Shown: positions 17,676-21,989 of the stretch, one piece after another
How positions within the stretch are numbered: position 1 is the stretch's first letter
Layout: each line of letters opens with the position of its first letter
Origin: Acidimicrobiales bacterium
GTDB lineage: Bacteria; Actinomycetota; Acidimicrobiia; Acidimicrobiales; SHLQ01
Direction: 5' to 3'
Length of the DNA stretch: 64,000 nt
Assembly (NCBI GenBank): GCA_020629635.1
Contig: JAHDCX010000009.1
Span: forward strand, 62,001 to 126,000
Translations under genes and position numbers: made by a program
The notes under the pieces: generated by a model
Told to the model about the DNA's origin: nothing
Seen by the model: the letters and a program-made list of their open reading frames with translations, nothing else
Database searches by the model: none

Positions 17676-18446
17676 TCAGCTCCGGGGCCAGAGTGTTTCG
17701 GTGTGTCCGTCGACGCCGATGACCTGGCCCGAGATGTGGCGTGCGTAGTCGCTCGCGAGGAACACGTTGAGATCGGCGATCTCTTCGGGGTCGACGTAGC
17801 AGAGCATCGAGGTCCCGAGCGCGTACTGGCGTCGCACCTCCTCGGGATCCATCGCCTCGGTCTCGGCGTGGGCGGCGATCACGCGCTCCATCCGGTCGCC
17901 ATTCACGTTGCCCGGCACGACGCCGTTCACCCGGATGTTGTCCGGGCCGAGCTCCATGGCCAGGGTCTTGGTGAATCCGGTCGACGCCCACTTGGCAGCG
18001 ACATAGGGCGCACGGGTCGGATAGCCGAAGATGCCCGCTCCCGAGATCAGGTTGATGATCACACCGGACTGTTGGGCCTTGAAGATCGGAACGACCCGGC
18101 GAGCGCAGTAGAACTGCGCGTCGATGCACACAGCCATCGTCTGACGCCACTCCTCGTCGGTCACGTCCTCGACGAGTTTGGTCGGACCCGCGATGCCGGC
18201 GTTGTTGACGAGGATGTCGAGACCACCCGGGAGGATCTCGTCGAAGATGGCATCGAGTTGGGTCGACACGCTGACATCGCATTCGAAGGTCGTCACGTCG
18301 TCGGGCAGGGTGGCCAACCCGGTCGGGTCGATGTCACACGTGAAGACCTCGGCTCCCGCATCTCGCATGGCGAGCACCGTGGCTCGACCCATTCCGGCAC
18401 CGCCCGCCGTGATGAAGACCCGGCGGTTTTCGAGGGTGATTTCCAT
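17676..18446 (-). CDS. Short-chain dehydrogenase/reductase (SDR)
   Basis: 256 residues beginning MEITLENRRVFITAGGAGMGRAT. It has the cofactor glycine motif GGAGMGRA, TCDIDP at the end of strand 2 (an aspartate, suggesting NAD), NNAGIAGPTK, ISGAGIFG and the catalytic Y-x-x-x-K in YVAAKWAS. The C-terminal ISGQVIGVDGHTETL closes the fold. The substrate is unknown. It reads divergently from the SRPBCC/YCII/ECF42 operon across a 128-base region that contains a perfect palindrome and the ECF42-type promoter. Confidence 0.87.
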   Translation of the reverse strand: MEITLENRRVFITAGGAGMGRATVLAMRDAGAEVFTCDIDPTGLATLPDDVTTFECDVSVSTQLDAIFDEILPGGLDILVNNAGIAGPTKLVEDVTDEEWRQTMAVCIDAQFYCARRVVPIFKAQQSGVIINLISGAGIFGYPTRAPYVAAKWASTGFTKTLAMELGPDNIRVNGVVPGNVNGDRMERVIAAHAETEAMDPEEVRRQYALGTSMLCYVDPEEIADLNVFLASDYARHISGQVIGVDGHTETLWPRS

Positions 18447-18468
18447 CGCCGGAGTCTGCCGGATGAGA

Positions 18469-18480
18469 TTTCTCGAGAAA
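18469..18480. promoter_or_regulatory. Perfect 12-bp palindrome, candidate operator
   Basis: TTTCTCGAGAAA is a perfect inverted repeat in the divergent region between the SDR (start 18446) and the SRPBCC operon. It lies 23-34 bases upstream of the SDR start codon and just outside the ECF42-type promoter. Its position suits a repressor site for the SDR. The cognate regulator is not identified. Confidence 0.4.
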
Positions 18481-18494
18481 ATTCCGGATTTCTC

Positions 18495-18520
18495 TGTCGA
18501 ATGCTGTCGAGCGCTGCGTC
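18495..18520 (+). promoter_or_regulatory. Candidate ECF42-type promoter (TGTCGA - 16 bp - CGTC)
   Basis: TGTCGA at 18495-18500 is followed after 16 bases by CGTC at 18517-18520, the -35/-10 layout of ECF sigma promoters. The published motif for ECF42 sigma factors is, from memory, TGTCGA at -35 with a CGA/TC-type -10. A second TGTCGA at 18505-18510 overlaps the spacer. The motif stands directly upstream of the operon that ends with an ECF42-like sigma gene, so positive autoregulation is likely. Transcription would start near 18527, giving about a 48-base leader. Confidence 0.65.
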
Positions 18521-18574
18521 ACGGGGATGAAAGCGGGCACCACGCCCGACAAGAACCCTCCGAAAGGACCAGCC

Positions 18575-19045
18575 ATGAGCACCACCACCGCACCCATCAA
18601 CCTCGACGTCGCCATGTTCATCGAGGCATCGCCCGAGACCCTGTACGACCTCGTCGCCGATGTGACTCGCATGGGCGAATGGAGCCCAGAGACGACGTCG
18701 GCCGAATGGCTCGGCGACAATCACGAGGCCGTTGTGGGCGCCCGCTTCAAGGGAACCAACACCGCCGGACCGAATACGTGGAGCACCAAGCCGACCGTGA
18801 CGGTCGCCGAACGGGGCCACGAGTTCGCCTTCGAGGTCCCCGGCAAGTCGGGACCGACCTGGACCTATCGCTTCGAGCCGGTCGAAGGCGGTACGCGGGT
18901 CACCGAGTCGGTTCGTCAACAGAAGCGTTCGCCGCTGTTCATTCGTCTGCTACAGAAGCGTGCTGGCATCACCGATCGTGCCGCCGACCTTCGTGTCAAC
19001 ATGCAGACCACGCTCGACAACCTCGCCGCGGCCGCCACGGCCTGA
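18575..19045 (+). CDS. SRPBCC (START-like) family protein
   Basis: 156 residues from the ATG at 18575, with a ribosome binding site (GAAAGGA) just upstream. It is a helix-grip fold protein of the polyketide cyclase/dehydrase type: VAMFIEASPETLYDLVADVTRMGEWSP is the usual first strand-helix pattern and YRFEPVEGGTRVTESV the later strands. Such proteins bind hydrophobic ligands; the catalytic role is not evident. It is the first gene of the operon with the YCII protein and ECF42 sigma factor, directly behind the TGTCGA-type promoter, so it is probably part of that regulon. Confidence 0.82.
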   Translation: MSTTTAPINLDVAMFIEASPETLYDLVADVTRMGEWSPETTSAEWLGDNHEAVVGARFKGTNTAGPNTWSTKPTVTVAERGHEFAFEVPGKSGPTWTYRFEPVEGGTRVTESVRQQKRSPLFIRLLQKRAGITDRAADLRVNMQTTLDNLAAAATA

Positions 19046-19104
19046 CCATTTCGAACAGCACAACCCTCAACACATCGAAACCGAAACGAAAGCAGAAACC
19101 ACAA

Positions 19105-19467
19105 ATGGACTACATGATTCTTCTCCACAGCGAAGAGGCCGACGGCGACATGCCGGCACCCGGCTCGCCCGAATTCGAAGCGATGATGGGCGAATGGATG
19201 GCCTACAACCAGCGCCTGATCGATGGTGGCCACTGGATCGGCGGCGCCAGCCTCACTCCGAGCGGTATGACCACGACGATCGCCAAGACGCCTGATGGCG
19301 CCACGGTCACCGATGGCCCGTTCATGGAAACGAAGGAAGTGATGGGCGGGTACTACGTCATCTCCGCAGCCGACCTCGACGAAGCCATCGAGCTGGCGAC
19401 GGCGGTCCCGATGCCGCACTGCAACATCGAAGTCCGCCCGATCGCCTTCCGCCCCGACGCTGACTGA
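19105..19467 (+). CDS. YCII-related (DGPF) domain protein
   Basis: 120 residues beginning MDYMILLHSEEADG. The family mark is the DGPFMETKEVMGGYYVI segment, the 'DGPF' motif, in a ferredoxin-like YCII fold. Proteins of this group are encoded beside ECF42 sigma factors in many bacteria; that linkage is established, though the molecular role is not. Here it sits between the SRPBCC gene (59 bases) and the sigma factor (30 bases). It probably belongs to the sigma factor's regulon and may take part in a stress or detoxification response. Confidence 0.88.
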   Translation: MDYMILLHSEEADGDMPAPGSPEFEAMMGEWMAYNQRLIDGGHWIGGASLTPSGMTTTIAKTPDGATVTDGPFMETKEVMGGYYVISAADLDEAIELATAVPMPHCNIEVRPIAFRPDAD

Positions 19468-19497
19468 GCGTCCCGACCCACGATCGGAGAACACGAC

Positions 19498-20739
19498 GTG
19501 CCGCTGACGTCCGAGGTCGACGCTGCGCTGACCGAACTGACCCGAGAACACTCGGGCCGGGTGCTGGCCATTCTCGCCAGCCGCTTCGGCAGCGTCGACC
19601 TCGCCGACGACGCCGTCCAGGACGCGCTCGTCCGAGCTCACGACCACTGGCCCGCCGAGGGCATCCCCAACAACCCTCCGGCATGGCTGATGACCGTGGC
19701 TCGCCGCCGAGCGATCGATCTCCTGCGAAGGGCGGAGTCGGCCGACCGACGGCTCCTCGCCTCCGCACCCGAACTCATGCTCGACGAAGACCCCACCACC
19801 CCCACCCACCTGGTCGACGACACCCACGACGACCCCGCCATCGACGAACAGCTCCGGCTCATGTTCCTCTGCTGTCATCCGGCGATCCGCCAGGACGCGC
19901 AGGTTGCTCTCACGCTTCGACTCGTGGGCGGCCTGACGACCGAAGAGATTGCGGCAGCCTTCCTCGTCCCGACGCCGACTCTCGCCCAACGAATCAGTCG
20001 AGCGAAGGCGAAGATCCGCGACGCGGCGATTCCGCTCGCCATCCCAGACGACCTCGACACCCGCGTCGACGTGTTGCTCTCCACGCTGTATCTCGTCTTC
20101 AACGAGGGCTACCTGTCCCGATCGGAGACAAGTGCCCAGCGCCTCGATCTCTGCCTCGAAGCGATCCGCTTGACGGCGTTGCTGTCGACACTGCTTCCCG
20201 ACAATCCGGAAGTGACGGGCCTGCAAGCGCTGATGGCGTTTCATCTCGCTCGCCGGGCGACCCGCTTCACCACCGACGGCGAGCTGGTGCTCCTTGCGGA
20301 TCAGGACCGACGCCGATGGGATCATGCGTTGATCACGCGGGCCAACGCCACCCTCCATCGGGCCATGTCCGCCCGGGCGCCCGGCCGCTACCAGGTACAG
20401 GCGTTGATCGCCTCGTACCACACGAACGCCTCGAAGTCTGACGACACCATCTGGGCTCGAATCGTCGGGCTGTACGAGCAACTCGCGCAGATGGATCCGT
20501 CTCCGGTGGTCGCGTTGAATCATGCGGCTGCGGTCGGCGTGGCCGGCGGGCCGACCGAGGGCCTCGCATTGATCGACGGGATCGAAGGCCTCGACGACTA
20601 CCACCTGTTGCACACGACCCGGGCCGAACTGCTGGAGAGGGCCGACCGATCGGACGACGCTCGCGACGCTTGGCGTCGGGCCGCAGAGCTCGCCACCAAC
20701 CCCGCCGAACGCCTTTTGATCGAACGCCGCGTCGGCTGA
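19498..20739 (+). CDS. ECF42-type RNA polymerase sigma factor with C-terminal extension
   Basis: 413 residues from a GTG, with GGAGAA 9 bases upstream. Residues 1-180 hold sigma-70 regions 2 (VLAILASRFGSVDLADDAVQDALVRAHDHWP) and 4 (TLRLVGGLTTEEIAAAFLVPTPTLAQRISRAKAKIR). About 230 more residues follow (YLVFNEGYLSRSETSAQRLDLC, VVALNHAAAVGVAGGPTEGL). This long TPR-like extension is characteristic of ECF42. In that group the extension controls activity in place of an anti-sigma factor, and none is encoded here. The upstream YCII gene and the TGTCGA promoter support the assignment. The signal it senses is unknown. Confidence 0.88.
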   Translation: MPLTSEVDAALTELTREHSGRVLAILASRFGSVDLADDAVQDALVRAHDHWPAEGIPNNPPAWLMTVARRRAIDLLRRAESADRRLLASAPELMLDEDPTTPTHLVDDTHDDPAIDEQLRLMFLCCHPAIRQDAQVALTLRLVGGLTTEEIAAAFLVPTPTLAQRISRAKAKIRDAAIPLAIPDDLDTRVDVLLSTLYLVFNEGYLSRSETSAQRLDLCLEAIRLTALLSTLLPDNPEVTGLQALMAFHLARRATRFTTDGELVLLADQDRRRWDHALITRANATLHRAMSARAPGRYQVQALIASYHTNASKSDDTIWARIVGLYEQLAQMDPSPVVALNHAAAVGVAGGPTEGLALIDGIEGLDDYHLLHTTRAELLERADRSDDARDAWRRAAELATNPAERLLIERRVG

Positions 20740-20762
20740 GCCAACCGACCGAGCCATCGCGA

Positions 20763-21989
20763 TCAGTCGGGCAGCATTGGCACGCTGAGGCCGGTGTCTC
20801 GGCCGATGCTGCCGGCGCGGCCGATCGATGCGGAGCCGAACTTGTCGCGGACACCATCGAGCGCGACGTCGAGCGGGGAGCCGTCGGCGAACGGCAACGC
20901 GAGTTGGATGGCGCTGGCGTCGGACAGGTTCGTCACCGAGAGACCGAGGAGCGTGATCCCCTTCTTCGAGATCGTGGGCCGCATCTCTTCGAGGAGCTCC
21001 GACGCCATGGCCAGGATCCGATCCGTCTCGGCTGTGGCGATCTCGAGCGACCGGGATCGGGTGGCTCGGCTGAAGTCGTCGAAGCGGAAGCGAAGTACGA
21101 CCGTGCGACCGACGCGATCGGCGTTGCGCATCCGGTGCGTCACTCGATCGACGATCTCGCGGAGCAAGGCATCGAGCTCTCCGGGCTTCTTGGGTCGGCG
21201 ACCAAGCGCTCGTTGCGACCCCATGGACGACCGGCGCTTTCGATGCTCGACCGGCCTCGGGTCGCGGTTGTGCGCAAGCGCATGGAGCTTGCGACCCGCG
21301 GCGACGCCCACGAGGCCGATGAGCGTCTGCTCCGGAAGATCGGCCACGTCGCCGACCGTGCGGAGGCCGACGTCGTGCAGCTTGCTCGACGTCTTCTCGC
21401 CAACGCCCCACAGTCGTTCGACCGGAAGCGGCCGGAGAAAGTCGAGCTCACCGTCAGGCGGCACGACGAGGAGACCATCGGGCTTGGCGACACCGCTGGC
21501 GACCTTGGCGAGGAACTTCGTTCGGGCGACGCCAACGGTGATGTTGAGTCCGACCTCGTCTCGGACTCGCGCTCGAAGATCGGCGGCGATCCGCTCGGGG
21601 CTACCGCTGATCTTCGACAACCCGCCGACGTCGAGGAACGCTTCGTCGATCGAGAGACCCTCGACCACCGGCGTGGTGTCGTCGAACACGTCGAACACGT
21701 CTCGACTGGCTTGGGAGTAGGCCTCCATCCGAGGTTCGACGACGATGGCCTGTGGGCACAGTTCTCGTGCCTGCCGCCCGTTCATCGCCGTCCGGATACC
21801 GAACGCCTTCGCTTCGTAGCTTGCGGCGAGGACGACGCCGCCACCAACGATGACCGGACGTCCCCGAAGCTGCGGCGCGTCACGCTGTTCGACCGACGCG
21901 TAGAACGAGTCGAGGTCGGCGTGAAGGATCGTCGAGTCGGCGCCAGGTCGGTACACGAACGTATGTTCGCACACCACGCCTGCGCCCAC
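20763..21989 (-). CDS. dinB: DNA polymerase IV (Y-family)
   Basis: 408 residues from a GTG at 21989; an in-frame stop lies 54 bases upstream, and no other start is available before the first motif. The palm starts at ILHADLDSFYASVEQRD (metal-binding Asp) and continues with PVVEGLSIDEAFLDVGGL, the second catalytic acidic pair (DE). GVARTKFLAKVASGVAKP and a helix-hairpin-helix region (LWGVGEKTSSKLHDVGLRT) follow, then the little finger. It lacks the usual beta-clamp peptide QL-x-LPF in perfect form but has IQLALPF at 379-385, which fits. Translesion synthesis across DNA damage. The neighbouring genes do not explain its regulation. Confidence 0.92.
   Translation of the reverse strand: MGAGVVCEHTFVYRPGADSTILHADLDSFYASVEQRDAPQLRGRPVIVGGGVVLAASYEAKAFGIRTAMNGRQARELCPQAIVVEPRMEAYSQASRDVFDVFDDTTPVVEGLSIDEAFLDVGGLSKISGSPERIAADLRARVRDEVGLNITVGVARTKFLAKVASGVAKPDGLLVVPPDGELDFLRPLPVERLWGVGEKTSSKLHDVGLRTVGDVADLPEQTLIGLVGVAAGRKLHALAHNRDPRPVEHRKRRSSMGSQRALGRRPKKPGELDALLREIVDRVTHRMRNADRVGRTVVLRFRFDDFSRATRSRSLEIATAETDRILAMASELLEEMRPTISKKGITLLGLSVTNLSDASAIQLALPFADGSPLDVALDGVRDKFGSASIGRAGSIGRDTGLSVPMLPD

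Follow-up and report, generated by a model that had tools for sequence, protein, structure and literature searches.

Which promoter serves a sigma factor encoded at the end of a three-gene operon that contains no anti-sigma gene, and which genes would that sigma factor serve in turn? This question is raised by the window, a 64,000-nucleotide stretch of an Acidimicrobiales bacterium contig, where a promoter-like site and co-directional genes for an SRPBCC protein, a YCII protein and a sigma factor span positions 18495-20739. ECF42 sigma factors are widespread, their regulons and control are poorly known, and the strict form of the promoter described below names three directly testable targets. 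In this study, we arrived at an explanation that we consider likely, in which an ECF42-type sigma factor drives its own operon and two distal genes via a promoter with a 16-bp spacer, its activity being set by a TPR extension and its transcript carrying a hairpin at the 5' end.

Gene content and identity of the sigma factor

The features of the locus are listed below in window coordinates.

18475-18494, + strand: A/T-rich box gagaaaattccggatttctc just 5' of the -35 element, possible UP-like element, kept in five same-genus orthologs
18495-18500, + strand: -35 element TGTCGA (extended form TGTCGAAT), invariant in five same-genus orthologous operons
18517-18520, + strand: -10 element CGTC (extended form TGCGTCA) after a 16-bp spacer, conserved as TGCG[T/A]CA
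18529, + strand: predicted transcription start, CGTC+9, by analogy to S. meliloti SMc01149
18534-18548, + strand: predicted 5'-leader stem-loop CGGGC-ACCAC-GCCCG, +6 to +20 of the transcript (leader z -2.09)
18562-18568, + strand: Shine-Dalgarno-like GAAAGGA, from sequence inspection
18575-19045, + strand: SRPBCC (Polyketide_cyc2) gene, 156 aa (PF10604, E 2e-17), start from ortholog N-termini
19105-19467, + strand: YCII/DGPF gene, 120 aa, containing TDGPFMETKE (PF03795, E 2e-14)
19498-20739, + strand: ECF42-type sigma gene, 413 aa, GTG start, from Pfam, structure model, Foldseek and tree

The initial annotation had described three genes on one strand that end in a sigma factor of 413 residues next to a DGPF/YCII protein. 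All three genes lie on the + strand in that order, and the YCII assignment was borne out by the PF03795 match. A 172-aa SRPBCC ORF starting at 18527 was rejected as over-long, since ortholog N-termini and the GAAAGGA sequence favour the ATG at 18575. The flanking genes, an SDR (17676-18446, - strand) and a DinB/IMS polymerase (20763-21989, - strand), both encode enzymes and lie on the strand opposite to the operon. No anti-sigma gene was found co-directional with or adjacent to the three genes, which agrees with the earlier description of an operon lacking an anti-sigma factor. The order SRPBCC-YCII-sigma was also present in five same-genus genomes and in L122, L124 and L126.

The sigma protein matched Sigma70_r2 (PF04542) and Sigma70_r4_2 (PF08281), both above cut-off, and DUF6596 at 114 bits. 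In an AlphaFold model made with 40 sequences (pLDDT 91, pTM 0.86), the C-terminal half was almost wholly helical. Foldseek on this model returned TPR folds, for example 2fo7 (TMt 0.69) and 2pl2 (TMt 0.68), with every E above 0.001. No Pfam TPR domain matched the window's sigma protein, and its PDB sequence matches were limited to the sigma core. With regions 2 and 4, DUF6596 and a C-terminus modelled as a TPR fold, the protein is ECF42-type as judged by domains, model and gene context rather than by the ECF classification's own group model. The long ECF42 C-terminal extension that had been claimed for it is thus supported by the DUF6596 score and the TPR-fold model.

In previous reports, ECF42 proteins carry a TPR-rich extension of about 200 residues at the C-terminus and have YCII as a conserved neighbour (PMC8999054), with no identifiable anti-sigma factor nearby (PMC6180224). 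At the locus, we found a sigma core, a long extension with a TPR fold, an adjacent YCII/DGPF gene and no adjacent anti-sigma gene. Sven_0747, Sven_4377 and Sven_7131 of S. venezuelae and ECF-10 of P. putida are like the window in having the extension, a YCII neighbour and no nearby anti-sigma factor, but the window locus differs in its 16-bp promoter spacer and in an operon that includes an SRPBCC gene. It has been proposed that the TPR extension sets ECF42 activity (PMC8999054); by analogy to the studied ECF42 proteins, this would probably hold for the window's sigma factor, perhaps via a partner protein. ECF41 (SigJ-like) factors also carry a fused regulatory C-terminal extension and have mostly local targets, and their promoters end in CGTC with a spacer of 16 +/- 1 bp (PMC3426412). 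They differ from the window in a SnoaL-like instead of a TPR extension, a -35 element of TGTCACA, other target enzymes and candidate leaders without the hairpin.

In a tree of 105 sigma relatives, the window's sigma factor fell in a 14-row clade (SH-aLRT 100), and an uncultured Acidimicrobiales bacterium, nested within the same-genus rows, was among its closest named relatives. Residues typical of this clade include D37, A153 and L180; the LADDAV pattern with which contigs were searched has a bearing on the first of them. The window's genome encodes two more ECF42 sigma factors with YCII partners (C12 = L017, C13 = L016). In a Gaiellaceae MAG (L129), an ECF42 operon with two consecutive YCII genes was seen.

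The operon promoter and its spacer

When the upstream regions of the five same-genus operons were aligned, the block TGTCGAAT-N12-TGCG[T/A]CA was kept and the flanks had diverged. TGTCGA and CGTC stand before the first gene exactly 16 bp apart, as first noted. It had also been claimed that this motif agrees with that of ECF42. For the predicted promoter, this held for the two elements, a TGTCGA-type -35 and a CGTC-type -10 being present and conserved, but not for 16 bp as the norm, since most of the ECF42 promoters identified here have 17. A second TGTCGA (18505-18510), described as overlapping the first site, was rejected as a promoter: it lacks a CGTC 16-18 bp away and thus a -10 element, and the two closest orthologs do not have it.

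Just 5' of the -35 element, AT content rose to 56% between 20 and 11 nt 5' of TGTCGA, compared with about 33% around this bin (73 promoters), and the A/T-rich box here is a possible UP-like element. An inverted repeat in the same place, AGAAAT-N5-ATTTCT, was considered as an operator; it was absent at the distal sites described below and was reread as the A/T-rich box. The 5' end of the transcript had been placed at about 18527. In S. meliloti, two mapping methods put the start of SMc01149 at the ninth base 3' of CGTC (PMC6180224 Table 1). By this analogy the window's start is predicted near 18529, two bases from the earlier estimate and better supported; it falls 3' of the upstream ATG at 18527. 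The operon promoter lies 54 nt from the ATG.

To place the spacer among other ECF42 operons (80 named contigs and the family genomes), we compared the loci with an identified promoter, many loci having given none; their promoters mostly had a 17-bp spacer. The 16-bp spacer was found in 11/11 promoter-identified members of the 14-sigma clade and, outside it, in L153 and L189. L215 (57% identical; spacer 16) and L233 (50% identical; candidate spacer 16) were found later than the tree. S. meliloti RpoE10 promoters have 17 bp, as counted from the sequences printed in PMC6180224. The promoters of the other two ECF42 sigma factors of the genome (C12, C13) have 17-bp spacers and different -10 letters. 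These sequence comparisons indicate that the 16-bp spacer is mainly a trait of one well-supported ECF42 clade. The difference between 16 and 17 bp also suggests a way in which the three ECF42 paralogs of a single genome might be kept from cross-talk.

Predicted regulon and probable autoregulation

A genome search for TGTCGA-N16-CGTC had been proposed as a check, with this site as the only expected match. The bare motif gave 86 matches in the 4.45 Mb genome versus 94 expected under an order-3 Markov model; it is at chance level and too loose to serve as a specific genome test. The strict form TGTCGAAT-N12-TGCGWCA gave 3 matches versus 0.025 expected (order-3 Markov model built on part of the genome), and still 3 at one mismatch. 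This pattern was derived from the operon upstream regions, that of the window's operon included, and the two distal sites were not used. It had one site in each of the five same-genus genomes with the operon, whereas five further genomes of the genus had no match.

One distal site (C31:136358-136384, - strand) lies 52 nt before an SRPBCC gene whose product is the closest paralog of the operon SRPBCC protein, at 55% identity, the next-best paralog having 33%. The other (C33:195791-195817, + strand) lies 51 nt upstream of a YCII-like gene that stands alone and whose product scored 21.8 bits, just below the Pfam YCII cut-off of 24. As the strict form matches three sites, the sigma factor probably has two targets beyond its own operon, and the promoter sequences probably define a regulon of three promoters: those of the operon, the C31 SRPBCC paralog and the C33 YCII-like gene. 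The matching promoter would put the two distal genes under the sigma factor.

No comparable distal sites were found in the same-genus relatives, most of whose genomes are incomplete, and one-mismatch sites in these relatives (L098-L101) were set aside as lying within or beside unrelated genes. In genome G019, a second promoter copy stands before an SRPBCC frame that is shortened and a YCII gene; it was found with a looser pattern, most other matches of which were in unrelated sequence. In L203 (genome of L122), the same promoter stands before a shortened distal SRPBCC frame and an intact-looking YCII frame, with no sigma gene directly after. In a Schumannella sp. MAG (L206), a clade-type promoter precedes a frame beginning MTGITYPPDAG..., by eye neither SRPBCC nor YCII. 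At about 631-1202 of L097 (G000:C31:134500-138000), the distal SRPBCC gene is faced by a convergent macro-domain-like gene that may be frameshifted.

The SRPBCC gene had been suggested as an added output, and the S. meliloti ECF42 factor RpoE10, which controls such a gene, offers a precedent by analogy. Overexpression of RpoE10 raised SMc01149-SMc01148, and the SMc01149 product has a hydrophobic-ligand domain (PMC6180224). The counterpart of SMc01149 in strain Ak57 is adjacent to the sigma gene and annotated SRPBCC, and the printed RpoE10 target promoter precedes it. RpoE10 is like the window's factor in its YCII-sigma pair and in an SRPBCC-type target (SMc01149) with its own TGTCGG...CGTC promoter. 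It differs in its 17-bp spacer, in having the SRPBCC gene as a separate downstream unit and in an operon that RpoE10 does not induce. Within the clade, an SRPBCC gene was in the operon of 9/14 members, and also in L215 and L216; none was detected in the clade members L070, L125, L127 and L128.

The initial annotation had considered that the sigma factor probably controls its own operon. This is likely from the promoter before the first gene, which is conserved in five orthologs, and we infer that the sigma factor binds there and activates its own transcription. It would guide RNA polymerase to TGTCGA-16 bp-CGTC before the SRPBCC-YCII-sigma operon and, by driving that operon, amplify itself. 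Autoregulation is not universal in ECF42, because in S. meliloti RpoE10 left its own operon uninduced (PMC6180224). The same result favours an alternative in which transcription of the operon starts mainly at a promoter for the housekeeping or some other sigma factor, and the ECF42 factor serves the distal SRPBCC and YCII-like genes alone. We consider this unlikely: the operon promoter shares the strict sequence and a near-equal distance to the ATG with the distal sites, it is kept in five same-genus orthologs, and a crude scan of 18300-21000 found no sigma-70-like promoter.

A predicted hairpin in the leader

The sequence 3' of the -10 element was seen to hold inverted repeats that differ in sequence and stand in one place, and the idea of a hairpin that arose from this was tested afterwards. 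A hairpin was scored in the 40 nt from 4 nt after the -10 element if its stem score was at least 14 and its centre lay at positions 14-18; the criterion was fixed on a discovery set that included the window and was left unchanged for two later sets. Hairpins were found in 30/44 ECF42 leaders of the discovery set (mean z -1.58), compared with 4.1% of dinucleotide shuffles. They recurred in 8/11 promoters with another -10 type (7% in shuffles) and in 13/18 from newly fetched genomes (4% in shuffles). The window's own hairpin has five pairs only, with p 0.07 in the 40-nt test. By median, the hairpins began at +5 and ended at +22 of the predicted transcript. The commonest loop was of 5 nt (25/52), and loops of 4-7 nt had A as first base in 28/41.

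Windows 5' and 3' of the hairpin zone were near chance; one upstream of the promoter had a slight fold bias (mean z -0.34). Strong stems were present in 33% of 276 leaders of other genes in the ECF42 loci, defined by a simple ORF rule, compared with 29% in shuffles. Among candidate ECF41 leaders of the same class, hairpins were present in 2/25 (3% in shuffles), a control weaker than it appears because many candidate ECF41 transcripts look leaderless: in L244-L273, several candidate promoters had an ATG 8-10 nt after CGTC, suggesting leaderless transcripts.

That both distal promoters and hairpins are coincidences of GC-rich sequence would fit the chance-level count of the bare motif. This is very improbable, since the strict form gave 3 sites versus 0.025 expected, each preceding a gene of the operon's families, and the hairpins replicated under the same criterion in two later sets, with flanking windows, the leaders of other genes and those of ECF41 near chance. 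The inverted repeat could instead be a DNA operator for a repressor. It sits in the initially transcribed region, a common place for operators. However, its sequence differs across species while pairing is kept: in 14 hairpins with five-base loops, the six inner pairs were standard in 82/84 cells versus 44 when partners were dealt anew, although the shuffle test carries more weight than this count because these hairpins were chosen for pairing. The count was made ungapped by script because a MAFFT alignment gapped the short hairpins. The kept pairing and the loops, which often start with A, fit RNA better, and we regard the operator as quite unlikely.

On the preferred reading as an RNA hairpin, the transcript would begin with a short stem-loop that most likely protects the mRNA 5' end or otherwise tunes expression, a 5' stability element being our leading guess. 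A less probable, tentative idea is that it acts as a regulatory RNA specific to the ECF42 transcripts of Actinomycetota and Chloroflexota. As one example, the TPR extension, which is fused to sigma region 4, might recognise the hairpin while it emerges from the polymerase, or a dedicated RNA-binding protein might do so; the RNA output would then act back on the sigma factor behind it. Should it be real, the hairpin would be an RNA feature common to the transcripts of one sigma group. An Rfam search gave no match for it, and a limited literature search, with the primary ECF42 papers outside its scope, found no described ECF42 leader hairpin.

As predicted from sequence, a hairpin at a fixed place recurs in actinobacterial and some chloroflexotal ECF42 leaders, the related bacteria concerned being high in GC. 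In the discovery set it was present in 26/36 leaders from Actinomycetota, 4/6 from Chloroflexota, 0/1 from Gemmatimonadota and 0/1 from Fibrobacterota. It was found in 0/16 distinct candidate promoters of ten proteobacterial and cyanobacterial plasmid records, by which the hairpin as a general ECF42 trait was rejected. Among the S. meliloti RpoE10 promoters examined, 1/3 had a hairpin: SMb20475 has a stem at the matching position in a leader that folds no better than shuffles (z -0.32), and the SMc01149 and SMc01151 leaders have none at that place. One Gemmatimonadota leader with a hairpin was seen in the later set of 11 promoters.
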